Positions 10,201-20,249 of a stretch of 64,000 nt of DNA are shown here, piece after piece; the first letter of the stretch is position 1, and each line of letters begins with the position of its first letter. This stretch comes from Thunnus maccoyii. Taxonomy: Eukaryota; Chordata; Actinopteri; Scombriformes; Scombridae. The stretch covers positions 21,847,067-21,911,066 of the forward strand of contig NC_056545.1 of the NCBI RefSeq assembly GCF_910596095.1, given 5' to 3'. A model generated the notes under the pieces. The model was not told where the DNA came from. It did not search any database and saw only the letters and a program-made list of their open reading frames with translations. The position numbers were made by a program, and so were the translations under genes.

Positions 10201-13200
10201 TGAGGTAAAGCTGGGCGATATGGACAAAATCAAATATTGAAATTTTTTTGGACAAATTGATTTTGATAATGCGACAATATTGTAGGGATTGCTATTGAGA
10301 TTTTTGATAAATAATCACCAGTTAAGTGGATATAAGGACTAAGTGGGTAAAGGAAAATGATAGAACAGCTAGAACAGTCTGTAAGTTCAGATAATTACAT
10401 CACTTTACTGTAATGCAGCCTTTAAAACCAGGAAAAGACAACACTTATGCTATATCACGATATTATGATGTCCAAAATCTAAGACGATATCTAGTCTCAT
10501 ATCACGATATTGATATAATATTGATATATTGCCCAGCCCTACATTCAGATTTTGATTTTGAGTTTGAATTATGCAGTCAATCATTTTTCCCTGTTAGGAT
10601 GAGGGTCCAGCAGCAGTGAGGTCTCCTACAGTGTGCATCCCCTGTGCTGATGAGGACAATGAGGGTCCGGCTGCTGGGCCCGTGCTGTGCGATGGCATTA
10701 AATTTTCCTCATTAATGGCGAAGTGGTTCAGCGGGTAGATACCACATTTCCTAAAGCTTTCCTTGACAATCCTGACACCCTCCTCCTCTTTCGCTACCTG
10801 ATACGTCCCCTTAAACACACCTGAGAACTCCTTCTTGCTGACTGCAAAGTGAGTATCAGTGGTACAACCGTCACCGATCAGTGCTGCGAAGCGCTGCTTC
10901 AGGAGTGCAAAGAGACCCGCATCGAGTGGCTGCAGGACGTGAGAGCAATGAGGCGGGAGGCACAGAAGTATAACGTCCTCCTTGCGAGCAGCTTCCACCA
11001 CCTCCAGGTTCACGGGCGACTTGTGGCCGTCAAAAATCAGCAGCAGTGGACGCTCCTTTGGCGCTTGCACAAGGAAATGTTTGAGGAACCACTTCTTGAA
11101 AAGCTCAGAGTTGATACACCCCGAGTCCGACCATCCATACAGGGCGTTTGGCGGCCCTTGAGTCTTGTAGCATACTCCGCCTGGGTAGGCTTTTGAGTAG
11201 ATAATAAACGGGGCAATGTCCTCTCCAGCTGCACTAAAGCAAGCCAGGACGGAGATGTGGTCCCTGGAGCCTGGTGCTGGCTTGCAGCCCAGACTGGCAG
11301 ATTTGGGAAGAATCACCCTCTTCCTGCCCAGCTGAAAGCCCGTCTCATTGCAGTTTAAGATTTGGTGAGGCTTGTCCCTCAGCCCGTGAGCGTCCATGAC
11401 GGTGCTCAGCAAGTGAAAAAACTGATCCACCGCTTCCTTCCTTACACACACTGTCCTCCCGCGGACAACATTGTCTGCCGGCTGGATGGTAATATTCTTT
11501 TCTTGCCGTTTCCTAAAATTGAGCCACCAGGTCTGGCCCAGCTTAGAGAACGCCACTCTCCGGTGCTGCCGCTTATAAATCGAAGAGGCGAAGGACACCA
11601 GCTGCTGCTTAGTCAGTGGGAATCCATGCTTGGACATGTACAAGGAGAACTCCACCAGCAGTTCCTCGTCAGCAGAGGTTATAAGCTGAGCTGGCCCGCT
11701 GCGACTCCCTGGTGTCACCCGTCCACTGACTCTGTCCCCCAGTGAAGATTTAGGGACTCCAAACTCCTTGGCAGCCTGTCTCACTGTGCACCTCCCTGAC
11801 TTCACCTTGATCAGTGCGCGCTCCATGGCCTCCTCTGTCCATTTCTTCTTCTTTTTCCTCCCGATTTTGTCAAGATGATTTCTCGATGGCATTTTTTTTT
11901 TCCTAGGATGGCACAGAAAATGCAGGCATGAATGATGTAATGAGATAGCAACAACAAATACAGCCTAATTATGGGTTGTGAGTATCGCAAAATTCAAACA
12001 TCACTTAATTAAATAAAACCTGTTCAGAGAGACCTTCAGCGTTATTCACTCTTCCTCCCCTTTTATCTACACTTTCACCTTGAACCACAGACTGCACACA
12101 GCTCTGTCTGTTCATTTTCCTGATGGGTACAGGGATTACATCACTCCCTCTTTCTGATCCAAACTGAAGGGGAATTTTTACTTTAAAGTTGTCAAACAGG
12201 CATTAAGAGATGCTGTCTGTTCTTTATGAAAACTTTTTTCATTTGTGAAGAAAGAAAAGGGATCATTTTTCTATTTTTCTTTATGCAGACCACACAGACC
12301 AACTTTATGAAAAATTTCATATTTGGATTGGTCAAATCAATTTATTTTATTTGTGAAAACAGAATAAAACATCCAGACATCCAGACCACATAAGTCAAGG
12401 TCTGTAAAACACTGACGAGTCAAACCTGATGACTGTATGACAAGGAAATAAATCTACCTCCAGGACACAAAAGTTCTGACAGTATTTACAACTGTCTAGG
12501 TTGTCCATGTTAAAGGATAGGTTCACAATTGTTGTAATCGTTCCTGCTGTTCATACTGACCATCAGAACAGTGATTCTCAACCTTCTGGTGTCAAGGACC
12601 CCCCCAATTGATACACATCAGGCCGCTGGCCTGTATTTGATAAGATGTTGTCTCAGGGATCGCCATATGATAAGATTTAGTTATTCCATAACAGTCTATA
12701 CTGCAGATTGGCTGATTAACAGCAAAGAGTGTGACACCTACAAACAGAATAGTCATTCTTATGCATTCTCTCATTGGGCTAACTTCTATTCAATGAAATA
12801 ATAGTGAAATTAAAATATTCCCTATTTTTCTGGGGACCCTCCGGAACCCCCTCAAGGACCCCTGGGGGTCCCTGGACCTCAGGTTGAGAACCACTGCATT
12901 AGAGGATCCCTTCATAATGCAGTTACAATGTAAGTGATGGGGACAAAATCCACAAGCCTCCTTCTGTGCAACAGGGAAACACTGAGGAAATACAAAGAGG
13001 GAATTTTATGCTAAAAACACTGTAAATGTGGCGGATATCCAGTTGATATGACTAACTTACACTGCTGAAGCCTCATATAAGCTTCAGATACATTTTTAGA
13101 TGCATTTTTGCATAAAAATGTGAACACACTGTGGATTTTGTCCCCCATCACTTACACTGAAAGCACATTTGAAGGGAATAGTCAGTGTGAACAGGAGGAA

Positions 13201-16200
13201 TAATTACAGCAAGGAAAACCTCTTTCACTGTTCATATGGACACCTGACTGTTGTTTTAAGACACACTTGAAAAATTGTGAACCTATTGTTATACGAGTGG
13301 CGTAGTCTCTTTAAGAAATAGCCCAGTGCATAGGAAGTGCGCATGACGCATGCGTGTGGTCGAGCGGGAGCGAGAGGGAGAGCGTGTGTGACTGTGTTAG
13401 GGGCGACCGGAGCAGTAAGAGAGAGTTAAGTTAGCAGTTAGCTGTGACAGTAATAGTACAGTGTATGTACAGTTCGAGCTGTTCTGACAGAGAATAAATG
13501 CTGCAACTCCTCAAGATTGAAGCTGAGTTCCCGTTTCTTGCTTGCTACCTGTTGATAAAGTGGAGGGAGTTAACCCCGAAGTTATCGGTGACTTCGGCCC
13601 TGGAGCAGTAAACTAAGTCTCCCCTGTGCTTCCCGACCACGGTCTGGACGCTGAAGCAGGAAAGGTTAACACTGGCGACCACGAAGGGACCCTCTCACGA
13701 CAGGATAAGCAGCAGCAGTGGTGAGCAAAACGGTGAAATAAACCGGAAAAGTCCGCAAAAGTTCCTGTATTTCCCCGCCTGACTAAGAAGCTAAGCTAAA
13801 ATGGCGGCAGCTAACCAGCGCACCGCGGCCAATAACAGGCACAGTCAGTCTGGAAACGTAACCAGTCACTCCAATCCGTTCATGTCACTGACTGCAGTAA
13901 GTGAAATGGAAATAAAAACGGACTATGTGAGTAAAAGGAACGGAAATAATGGACATTATAACCCCTTTCTATGTGAAAGTGAGACTGTTACAGTGAAACA
14001 GCAAACGAGTGAGACATCTTATGTGCCAGCTCGGCTAAAGTTAGCGAGCACTAATCCCTTTGTTGATGCCGACGGGGAAAGTTACTGCTTCCAAGACTGT
14101 GGGGCAGACACAAAAAGCAAAGACTCGTACCCCCATGTGCTCAATCACCATGCCCATGTCCAGCCATTACAGCTATACAGCACAGTTTTGCCATCAGCTG
14201 CGGCCACTGCAGCATCCAGTGCAAACCCCTTTGCATCAGCCCATCCAGGGAGTTTTGCTCAGAGCACACCAGTCCCTTGTTACTCTTCAATCCCAACATA
14301 CCCACAGTTGCACACCCCTTGCTGCTGTTCATTCAAAGACACTAACTATGGACATTCATTTGAGCAGGGCAATAATCAAACTGTGCAGTTAAAGCACTCC
14401 TTCCCCAAATGTGAGCGGCCCAATTCACGTGCACACCAGCCCAGTCCTACATACTATGAGCCTTCATCTGAAAGTGAGGATGACTATGATCACAAGGAGA
14501 GAGTCCCCACCTTACGTCCTGGTCAGTATGATGGCACCACTCCATGGAAAGAGTTCATTCACCGGTTTGAGAGTTGTGCTAAAGCAAATTACTGGTCCAA
14601 AAAGACTATGGCTGTTCAGCTTAAGTTCTGTCTGGTGGGTGCAGCAGGGGCAGTAATCCACAGAAATCCACGGTCTTCTCAGTGGGACTACAGCCGTCTG
14701 GTGGAGGAGATGGCGACTGCTTATGGCCCCTGTTCAGAGCACGCTGCTGCCGTGGCCATTGAACTGAGACAGCGGGTCCGCAAACCAGGTGAAGCTCTTC
14801 ATGTGTTGAGGGATGACATATATGAGCAAGTGTCAGTAGCCTACAGTGACAAGACTGATAATGAGCAGGACGCCATAGGCGTTGAAGTTTTTACAAATGC
14901 TGTAGGGGATGCAGAGATTGTACAGAAACTATTAGAACGGCGACCCCGCACACTAGCCCAAGCTTATGACATTGCGCGCCGCCACGAAACCACCAAGCAG
15001 GCGGTGTCGCGGGTCACCAGCCTCATGCAATCAGTGGCATATAATACACCAGAACGGAGGTCCCGTGCTGCTATGGTTAGAGAAGGAACTGAGGGAGAGG
15101 AAGCAGAGACTGTTGTGGCCACCCCAGCTGTCAGTTATAAGCCAAAAACCTTGGACTTCCACCGCACATCGACTCCACAGAAAAGCAGCAAGGATATTAA
15201 GTGGGAGGATATTCGCTGTCATAAATGCTCTGGGATTGGCCACATGAAAAGAAATTGCCCCTCCCCTAAGAAAATGACCAGAATTCAAGCCCCAACAGCC
15301 ACCCATGATTGCCCAGAGCCCACTGTGCTTCATCTTAAAACCCATGATCAAGAAATGAGCATTCATATGCTAGTGCATGAACTGGATGTCTGTGCTGTTC
15401 TGGACAGTGGAGCACGGAAAAGTGTGTTGCCTCTGCACCATTATAATGCTATTCACCCAGATGCCCGTCCCCCACTTCAGCCGTCAGTTGTAAAGACTCT
15501 GCTAGGTGTTGGGCCCGGAGATGTTCCTGTGATGGGGGAGGCCCACATCCCTGTTCAGATCAATAACCGGCAGGTGAGCGTGCATTTCCTGGTTGCTGAC
15601 ATTGCCAGTGACGACGCCCTCCTGGGCCACCCTTTTCTCACCCAAGCCCAAGCACGCCTGGACTTTGGGAACCGCCGCATTGTACTGTTCGGTGAGGAAG
15701 TGCCATACTTCCACACCCTAAGCAAACCAAAGACACGTGCAGTGTGAGTTGGACTCTGACATCAACCAGGTGGTGCAGAGTCCAGTGGGGGTAGAGAGAC
15801 ATCCAGCCGTGACAACAGTGACTCCAGTGGGGGTAGAGGAAACCTTACACACAGACATGGACAATTTAAAGCCCCCTGAGAGAATCTATCTCACTAGGAC
15901 CAGGGAGACTGCACTGTTTCCTGGCTGGTCCCTGGAAGAGCTGCAACAGGCCCAGGAGGCTGACCCAGACATTGCGCCTATCAGGGCATGGAGGGAGGCC
16001 AGTGGCGAGCGTCCCTCATGGAATACAGTCTCCCCACACAGTCCAGCCACAAAGGCCTATTGGAGCCAGTGGAAGCGGCTCTACGTCCGAGATGGAATAC
16101 TAGTCAGGCGGTTCTATTGTCTGGATGACACCCAGTACTATCCACAGGCGGTGCTGCCACGCACCTTCCAGCCTGACGTCATGAGGCAGATGCATGAGGG

Positions 16201-19200
16201 ACCAGTTGGTGGACATTTTGGTGTGGAGCGCACTGTGGCACGGCTGCAGACTCGATACTACTGGTACCGAATGAGAGAGGATGTTGCCCTCTGGTGCCAC
16301 ACTTGCACCAGCTGTGCGTCCAAAGCCAGGCCCCTTAAGGCACCACAGGCCCCCATGGGAACCGTCAGGGTGGGAGCCCCAATGGAGCGTGTCGCCTTGG
16401 ACATTATGGGGCCACTGAATGAGACAGAGCGCAAGAACCGTTATGTGCTCGTGATACAGGACTATTTCACAAAATGGGTGGAAGCCTTCCCCTTACCCAA
16501 TGACCAGGCAGTAACTGTGGCTGAAGTGCTGGCCTCTGAGTGGGTGTGTCGCTATGGGGCACCACAGATGTTGCATAGTGACCAGGGTCGGAACTTTGAG
16601 TCAGAAGTGTTCCAGAAAATGTGCACACTGTTCGGTATCGAGAAAACACACACCACGCCCTTTCGACCTCAGTCTGATGGCCAAGTAGAAAGGTTTAATG
16701 CCACCCTGCAAAAGATTTTGGCCACAACAGCGGAGCGCTGTCACTGGGACTGGGACCTCATGATCCCCTATGCTGTCATGGCCTACAGAGCGACAAGGCA
16801 CAGTTCCACTGGATTCACCCCCAACTTCATGATGTTTGGCCGGGAAGTGAGTGAGCCGGTAGACCTCGTAACCGGCTTGCCCCCTGACTCTGAAACTGCC
16901 CCCTCTGCTCCTGAGTATGTTCAACGCCTCCGTGAGCGGCTGGAGCTGGCGCATCAAATCGCCAGGGATGCACTCGGTGAATCCGTGAAACGTGCAAAGA
17001 GGCAGTATGATAAGAACTGCTGCCGCACACAGTATCAGGTCGGAGATGCGGTGTGGTATCTCATCAAGGGCACAAAGAAGGCCAAGAACAGGGTCAGGAA
17101 GTTCCTCCCATCATATGAAGGCCCCTTCTTCATCCTAGGGCAGCTGGATGACCTAGTGTATCGCATCCAGAAAGGCCCAAGAACCAAAGTGAAAGTGGTT
17201 CACCATGATCAGCTGAAGCCCTATCGCAGCCGCGAGCTGATGGACAACACCTGGGCCATGGAGCAGGCTCAGGGCTGGGCACCGGTGGAGGTGTCACCTC
17301 CAGCCTTGGACACGGATTCTGCAGACCCAGACCTGGAGCTCTCTGGCCTCTTCTCCAACGCGGACACGGAGGAGACCCCCGGCAACACTCCACCAGATCC
17401 AGCAGGGCACACCCCTGCATCTGCTACCTCCCCCCCCTCAAACCTTCCTCACCCGGACTTTCCTTCCCCCAGGGACTTTCAGGATAGTGGGGGTGGAGAG
17501 GTGGGTCGTCGTCATCGAAGACCAAGCCGCCGTCGTAGGCCCCCGGCCAGGTATGGTGAGTGGGTGGCTCATTAAGGACAGTTGATGGACAGTTCCGAGG
17601 GTTAAAGGACAATTCCCAGTGTTAAGAGAAAAAGAATGAGGGGAAATGTCATGTACTGTTTGCTACTGTTGGAGCTAATTGTTATTTTATATGTTTACTA
17701 CATTTATAAAAAAAAAAAAAGAAACTTGAGGAGTATTTGTTTGATAATAATTATACACTGTGATACAACTGTATTTTTCTGTTAAGGGAACACCTTTATG
17801 CAGTGAAGTTAGTTTCATATGCTCCCGGTCGCCGTTTAGGGCTCAGATAAGTTCATGCCTGTGTAGTAAGTGTTATTAATGTCTCTTCCAGAGTTTATTA
17901 TGCTAGGCTGTGATGTGTGCACCCTATAAGAAAGACTGCTACATGTTCATATTTGCACTGAGAAACTGCACCTGTCGCTAGTTCCCTCCTACAATGGACT
18001 GTAAATATGCTGGTTACATTGGATCCTTTCAGATGGACTCTTTACAAATGAGGACTGTATACCTGTAAAAGAAAAAAAAAATGTTGATGTGTATCATTGT
18101 GCTGGAGTGGAATTATGGGGTAATGCCATCCAGAGTGGGGGTAGTGTTATACGAGTGGCGTAGTCTCTTTAAGAAATAGCCCAGTGCATAGGAAGTGCGC
18201 ATGACGCATGCGTGTGGTCGAGCGGGAGCGAGAGGGAGAGCGTGTGTGACTGTGTTAGGGGCGACCGGAGCAGTAAGAGAGAGTTAAGTTAGCAGTTAGC
18301 TGTGACAGTAATAGTACAGTGTATGTACAGTTCGAGCTGTTCTGACAGAGAATAAATGCTGCAACTCCTCAAGATTGAAGCTGAGTTCCCGTTTCTTGCT
18401 TGCTACCTGTTGATAAAGTGGAGGGAGTTAACCCCGAAGTTATCGGTGACTTCGGCCCTGGAGCAGTAAACTAAGTCTCCCCTGTGCTTCCCGACCACGG
18501 TCTGGACGCTGAAGCAGGAAAGGTTAACACTATCCTTTAATTTAGTCCAGGTTTACTTGGTTTAATGTTATCTTGTAAATTAGCCTATCTGTTGGACAAC
18601 TCTAAATATCCTAACAGGAATATGAGCCTTAAGTTTCCCTAAAATTCCTTCTTAAATCTTGAATAGGAAGCCAACTTCACCTTCGGCATTCAGCTACTAC
18701 AATATTATGTATTAGTATTTCCAACTGTATGACAGTCAAAGCTGCCCTTATACGTCGGGAAAACTGTTATAATACCAACTGACTTACTGGTCTTGTGGAG
18801 TCAGGAGAGATATTCAGTGTGGGACAGAAGAAAACTCGTCAAATGTTGGTTGTTTTGACGCCACACACCGTAACGTGTCGTTAACGTTACAGCTTGCAGA
18901 CTAACAATAATGTGAGCCGTGGTGGTTTTTCAGACAACAAATTACGCTTAAAACAGAAACCAGGTAGTAGTGTGTCTTCTGCGGTTGTCACTTAATGTCT
19001 GTCGGCTACAGAAAGTTGAAATGACGCGGTTACAGTCTAACAGTTTAGCATTGCTTCCCCTTCCTAGCATGACAAGAGTAAAGAAGCACTATCGCTCCTT
19101 GCCTTTGCCCCACCCGCATTCTGAGAAGTCCCGCCCTACTCTGCCTCTGATTGGCTAGATTTTGTTGCTTTCGTTGGTTAGATTGGTTAGGTTTAGTCAT

Positions 19201-20249
19201 GAGGAGTGAGATTGGTTAAGAACAGGGTAAGAATATCACGACCAAAGCCAATCAGAGGCAGGGTAGGGCAGGTCTTCACAGAATGCGGGTGGAAAAAAAT
19301 AACGCTACTGCCTCCAATCACAACAAACCCGGAAGTTTTGTGATAGTTTCTTCAAAATAAAAGTTTGGCAGTTCCTGTTACAAAAATAAGCGTCGTCGAA
19401 GTATAAACTCAATAAATTGCATCACACTAATGGATAGGTTCACAATTTTTCAAGTGTGTCTTAAAACAACAGTCAGGTGTCCATATGAACAGTGAAAGAG
19501 GTTTTCCTTGCTGTTATTATTCCTTCTGTTCATACTGGCAATTAAAAGATCCCCTTCAAATGTGCTTTCAATATAAATGATGGGGCCAAAATCCACAGTG
19601 TGTTCACACAGTCATTTTCTGCAAAAATGCATTCAAATCTGAAGCTTATATGAGGCTCCAGCAGTCTGAGTTAGTCATATCAAGTGGATATCTGCCACAT
19701 TTACAGTCTTTTTAGCATCAACCTCCCTCTTTGTGTTTCCTCGGACAGTGTTTCCCTGTTGAGCTGCGGTGGGAGTATAGTAACAAAAAGAGGGACCTTG
19801 CCACTAAAAAGACTGTAAAATTGAAAGATACTTGATGTGACTCATTTGGATGGCTGAAGCTTCATATTGACTTCAGATACATTTTTGCACAGAAGCAGGA
19901 CTGTGGATTTTGGTCCCAATCACTTCCATTATAAGTGCATTATGAAGGGATTTTTTAATGGTCAGTATGAATAGCAAGAATGATTACAGCAAGAAACAAC
20001 ATGTGCCAGTGTTTATTTTGGTACCTGACTATTGTTTTAAGACAGACTTGAAAAATTGTGTAAAATAATAAATAAAGTCATATGCTGAAACTGCCACACT
20101 TCACATCATTCCACACTGAACAGGTTTTATGTGTCGATACCATATTCAGTAAAAAAGTATACGTTTTACAATTACCTGTTGTAATATTATACATTTACAT
20201 TATCCCTTGCAAAAACCTCACCATAACCATCCTGTGGAGTATTTGGCTT

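Follow-up and report, generated by a model that had tools for sequence, protein, structure and literature searches.

How does a very young retrotransposon with identical long terminal repeats (LTRs) come to carry gag, protease and integrase parts together with no recognizable reverse transcriptase (RT)? This question is raised by a gypsy-type LTR element of 5,243 bp in Thunnus maccoyii that occupies positions 13287-18529 of the window, i.e. of the 64-kb stretch of NC_056545.1 (contig C13:21847067-21911066) that was analyzed as a whole. A reading made from the letters of this stretch alone (in the following, the sequence-only reading) had suggested that the element belongs to a mobilized non-autonomous family that is copied in trans by an autonomous relative. 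Searches of the genome (782,140,779 bases in 54 contigs) point to a different answer. The element is most likely one internally deleted member of a small Ty3/gypsy-type family with recent activity, and its own RT and RNase H were probably lost during reverse transcription, before insertion. It looks like an ordinary defective copy, i.e. a deletion derivative, and no new kind of element.

The evidence comes from a comparison of the element with its closest relatives. Using BLAST, twelve stretches were aligned with it: L031-L034, which have paired LTRs, and L035-L042, each of which surrounds another LTR match. Body sequence was found in five of them, namely in L031-L034 and, as a partial 3' part, in L039, while the other seven had only the LTR match. 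Three of these relatives, L031 (C23:25.4 Mb), L032 (C2:9.09 Mb) and L033 (C1:40.5 Mb), align with the window copy at 98.5-99.0% identity in the aligned pieces on each side of positions 15737-15749, and at this point each of them has an additional segment of 1,814 nt. The segment of L032 and L033 gives strong matches to RVT_1 (E 2e-34) and RNase H (E 9e-36) in the same Pfam scan in which the window element shows neither an RT nor an RNase H family at E <= 1, and L031 matches a 701-nt RT probe at 99%. Hence, the absence of RT and RNase H from the window copy, correctly recognized in the sequence-only reading, is not a failure of sensitivity. A hidden or divergent RT was ruled out, as the sibling segment is strongly detected and its flanks abut directly in the window.

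L032 and L033 each contain one uninterrupted frame, 1,878 codons long from stop to stop, in which integrase is encoded downstream of RT and RNase H as is typical of the Ty3/gypsy order. In both, the paired LTRs of 382 nt are identical to each other, and the 4-bp duplications are CCTG and CAAT, respectively. L031 is flanked by the duplication CAGT; between its two LTRs there are 3 substitutions and 8 gap columns, and its frames are interrupted. The LTRs of all three siblings are 96-98% identical to those of the window copy. Thus, judging from these sequences, an apparently complete partner with near-identical LTRs exists, as had been anticipated, and is represented by three copies. That L032, L033 and the window copy each have an LTR pair free of differences shows that insertions have been recent in a family with apparently complete members.

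The point at which the 1,814 nt are missing can be read directly. In L031-L033, the upstream end of the segment is CACATGCAGTGAGAG and the downstream end is GCTGTGCAGTGTGAG, while the junction in the window (15737-15749; all features of the element lie on the plus strand unless stated otherwise) reads CACGTGCAGTGTGAG. The two ends form a short direct repeat, exact over 7 nt and imperfect over 13 (11 of them matching), of which the window copy retains the downstream form throughout. As 1,814 leaves a remainder of 2 on division by three, the integrase frame is displaced by +1 relative to gag-protease and the two frames overlap. From stop to stop, they span 13795-15747 (650 codons) and 15722-17575 (617 codons). 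The gag-protease frame (13801-15747) is closed by a TGA at 15745-15747 that was brought into frame by the deletion, and the first in-frame ATG of the integrase frame (15722-17575) is at 15857. Translational frameshifting between two native open reading frames was also considered and ruled out, given that L032 and L033 hold one 1,878-codon frame and that the 1,814-nt loss creates the overlap.

The two long frames with gag/protease and integrase parts were rightly described before. In the second frame, the integrase H2C2 zinc-binding domain (16157-16321, PF17921, E 1.1e-18), the integrase core rve (16379-16669, PF00665, E 7.9e-13) and the integrase C-terminal domain p58_C (17120-17221, PF22938, E 1.3e-11) exceed their curated cut-offs. 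The matches in the first frame are sub-threshold, i.e. a CCHC zinc knuckle at 15214-15264 (PF00098, E 0.00099, 19.5 bits against a cut-off of 20.8) and an aspartyl protease at 15376-15645 (PF13975, E 0.0033, 18.4 bits against a cut-off of 28.2). The latter region contains an LDSGA motif spotted by eye, which we take to be that of an aspartyl protease. Outside the two frames, 13672-13800 and 17573-18144 contain no stop-free run of 60 codons; three antisense runs of 60-74 codons, which lay outside the Pfam scan, overlap the edges. To say that the element keeps its integrase is misleading, as the deletion shifted the integrase frame, which is no longer continuous with gag-protease. The window copy cannot encode a polymerase and, owing to the frame shift, it probably makes little or no integrase.

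Is there a second element of this kind? A 49-nt pattern across the junction has a single genome match within 3 mismatches, the window itself. A 701-nt gag probe finds six matches, i.e. the window, L031, L032, L033, a stretch of 395 nt in L034 and, on C4, a fragment of 53 nt. A 701-nt integrase probe finds 13, the five family elements plus eight places that are partial or more diverged. The 701-nt RT probe, taken from L032, yields nine: L031-L033 at 99-100%, a relative on C4 at 92%, a remnant of 176 nt in L034 and four further matches at 70-78%. For these three probes all first-look candidates were scored (6/6, 13/13 and 9/9, respectively), while repeat counts given elsewhere are lower bounds. 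Across the whole assembly, neither the junction pattern nor the gag probe revealed a second element with gag, protease and integrase but no polymerase. Two of the five copies bearing the primer-binding site are internally deleted, the window copy and L034 (C23:3421290-3427154), and their deletions differ. In L034, whose frames are interrupted and whose LTRs (duplication CAAG) differ by 5 substitutions and 6 gap columns, the deletion leads from gag, at the equivalent of window position 14844, into RT. The mobilized polymerase-less family of the sequence-only reading is thus not borne out in this assembly, in which the window copy is the only one found with its part list, an outcome that this reading had itself named in advance as a refutation.

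How might the segment have been lost? LTR elements are described as replicating with template switching and high-frequency recombination (PMC1950507; PMC5668417), and shorter defective forms of endogenous retroviruses (ERVs) are described as trans-complemented by complete ones (PMC10924933). With these precedents, the window copy was probably reverse transcribed in a particle and by an enzyme that a complete sibling supplied. The minus-strand cDNA would then have switched from the downstream repeat to its upstream counterpart, so that RT and RNase H were skipped, and the shortened cDNA would have integrated with a 4-bp duplication. Its two LTRs are still present, as are the primer-binding site and polypurine tract. 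Copying in trans with a relative's RT, as proposed earlier, is plausible for this one copy, though not, as far as this assembly shows, as the habit of a family. The two alignments that meet at the L034 junction overlap by 14 nt, which reflects an imperfect repeat of roughly this length, and here too it is the downstream form that was retained (the upstream form being taken from the window). Retention of the downstream form is the polarity to be expected of a minus-strand jump, as judged from these two cases only.

The main rival explanation is that a complete element inserted and that RT and RNase H were subsequently lost in the host chromosome by microhomology-mediated deletion or replication slippage. 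The short sequence common to both deletion ends and the single occurrence of the junction both speak for it, and identical LTRs with a clean duplication would be equally expected. However, 0 differences in 385 LTR positions (95% upper bound of the divergence 0.8%) leave little time for a later deletion, and reverse transcription accounts better for the fact that two of five copies have deletions at short, imperfect repeats of which the downstream form survives. As neither point is decisive, a deletion after insertion is unlikely but deserves serious consideration.

Several points weigh against a loss during reverse transcription. From one copy it is impossible to tell whether the deletion preceded or followed insertion, and the polarity argument is based on two junctions only. 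Moreover, the window copy carries substitutions of its own. Those at 13367, 13377, 13379 and 13585, which are present in both LTRs, occur in none of 28 other aligned LTR matches that have a base there (28 of at least 41 other matches listed, several of them partial). Between the LTRs, compared with L031-L033 and with L034 set aside, 12 of 2,065 sites upstream of the junction and 3 of 2,402 sites downstream are private to it (Fisher p 0.009). As these LTR and internal substitutions show, no direct parent of the window copy turned up in the assembly; therefore, the upstream repeat of the parent may have differed from that of the siblings. The skew of the private substitutions would fit two templates for the window copy. 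Yet, the undeleted L033 is skewed as strongly in the opposite direction, with 1 upstream versus 13 downstream (p 0.0025). The skew is thus unspecific, and the test for a mosaic parent, albeit suggestive for the window copy, was discarded as proof.

The missing parent also leaves a small chance that the RT-less form is a young lineage still segregating at other loci in other individuals and copied in trans by the complete siblings, of which the assembly caught one member. Slightly less probable is a dedicated non-autonomous family, in which gag, protease and integrase without polymerase would form a stable lineage copied in trans. Near-identical and apparently complete partners are indeed available for such a family, and with the direct parent absent from the assembly searches, a lineage segregating in other individuals is conceivable. 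Nevertheless, the junction occurs once within 3 mismatches; three of the five family elements found with the gag probe have RT and one has a different deletion; and the integrase frame is shifted by the deletion. In addition, of the coding changes private to the window copy, 8 of 11 on the upstream side of the junction and 1 of 2 on the downstream side are non-synonymous, which, with few sites, gives no sign of constraint. Finally, that an assembly error removed the 1.8-kb segment is hardly credible: private substitutions on both sides mark a distinct copy rather than a mis-assembled sibling, and the short, imperfect end repeat would be an unlikely place for an assembler to join.

The ends of the element are as initially described. 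The 5' LTR (13287-13671) and the 3' LTR (18145-18529), each 385 nt long and of the form TG...CA, are identical; their exact match extends 2 nt beyond the 385 only because CT follows both. The target site duplication CTAT is present on the left (13283-13286) and on the right (18530-18533), and a paralogous empty site, GAACCTATCC, has one CTAT only. This site is provided by the other arm of a flanking inverted repeat, whose arms (12969-13286 and 19434-19761) are about 320-330 nt long and 87% identical. The element adjoins the left arm at its inner end, and the empty site belongs to the right arm. A 4-bp duplication is present in the window copy and in all of L031-L034. One base past the 5' LTR lies a presumed primer-binding site (13673-13690), 15 of whose 18 nt form a core with five exact occurrences in the genome, all of them in the window copy and L031-L034. 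No primer tRNA gene was identified in the genome, where the complement of this core matches only the five family elements; ARAGORN found no tRNA, and Rfam at gathering thresholds found nothing, in the 64-kb window. A polypurine tract-like AGTGGGGGTAG (18134-18144) adjoins the 3' LTR, and the 20 nt ahead of this LTR recur unchanged before the 3' LTR of each of L031-L034. Taken together, paired TG...CA LTRs, a short target duplication, a primer-binding site and a polypurine tract make up the full set of Ty3/gypsy-type end features.

Besides the tract at 18134, AGTGGGGGTAG recurs at 15784 and 15826, with a variant at 17486. The recurrences at 15784 and 15826 are part of an in-frame tandem unit of 42 nt between RNase H and integrase, of which there are two exact copies in the window element and in L034, three in L032 and in L033 and one in L031. 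The unit could provide an internal plus-strand start resembling a central polypurine tract, or it could be a variable spacer.

Sequences related to the LTR are more widespread. The genome search, in which 40 of 185 first-look candidates were scored, yielded at least 43 matches, including the two LTRs of the window copy itself. An apparently solo LTR at C22:15066600-15066984 (L003, L035) is 98% identical to the window LTR and flanked by the duplication AGAG, with no match to body sequence in the 9.9 kb examined around it. Among the matches listed, nine related ones (L012, L013, L017-L020, L022-L024) cluster within about 0.8 Mb at C15:6.21-6.99 Mb. Six of these nine begin at one common internal LTR position, and L012 and L013 look segmentally duplicated, as they have the same 12 flanking bases on both sides. 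Two further places contain diverged body sequence, namely a putative older relative at C4:2231431-2234115 (~2.23 Mb; RT 92%, integrase 93% and only 53 nt of the gag probe) and the partial copy L039 (C10:7.66 Mb), whose integrase and 3' parts are about 92% identical.

The locus shows neatly how a defective copy can arise in one step from a complete LTR element, and both ends of the event are still readable because the siblings are about 98.5% identical. It also serves as a warning that a part list drawn from one copy can mimic a selected architecture, although it was produced by a single frame-shifting deletion. The family is named in no title or abstract opening among the literature matches listed, and no claim is made that it is undescribed. 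With the Ty3/gypsy LTR retrotransposons represented by L031-L033, the window copy has in common the LTRs, the 4-bp duplication, the primer-binding site, the polypurine tract, gag, protease and an H2C2/rve integrase. In these siblings, integrase is preceded by RT and RNase H; the window copy is devoid of the corresponding 1,814 nt and frame-shifted. Non-autonomous LTR groups of plants, such as LARD, TRIM, Morgane, BARE-2 and TR-GAG, likewise do without a full enzyme set of their own. They are families with defined part lists, whereas no second copy of the window element's form was found. Among ERVs, defective forms described as mobilized in trans include the bovine ERVK[2-1-LTR] D type, mouse IAP I-delta-1, and ETn with MusD (PMC10924933). 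The bovine D type is presented there as a many-copy subclade that accounts for 85% of the resequenced elements, whereas the window junction occurs once. What the window copy has in common with the bovine D type, IAP I-delta-1 and the ETn/MusD pair, as portrayed in that source, is a defective form that exists beside complete close partners (PMC10924933).

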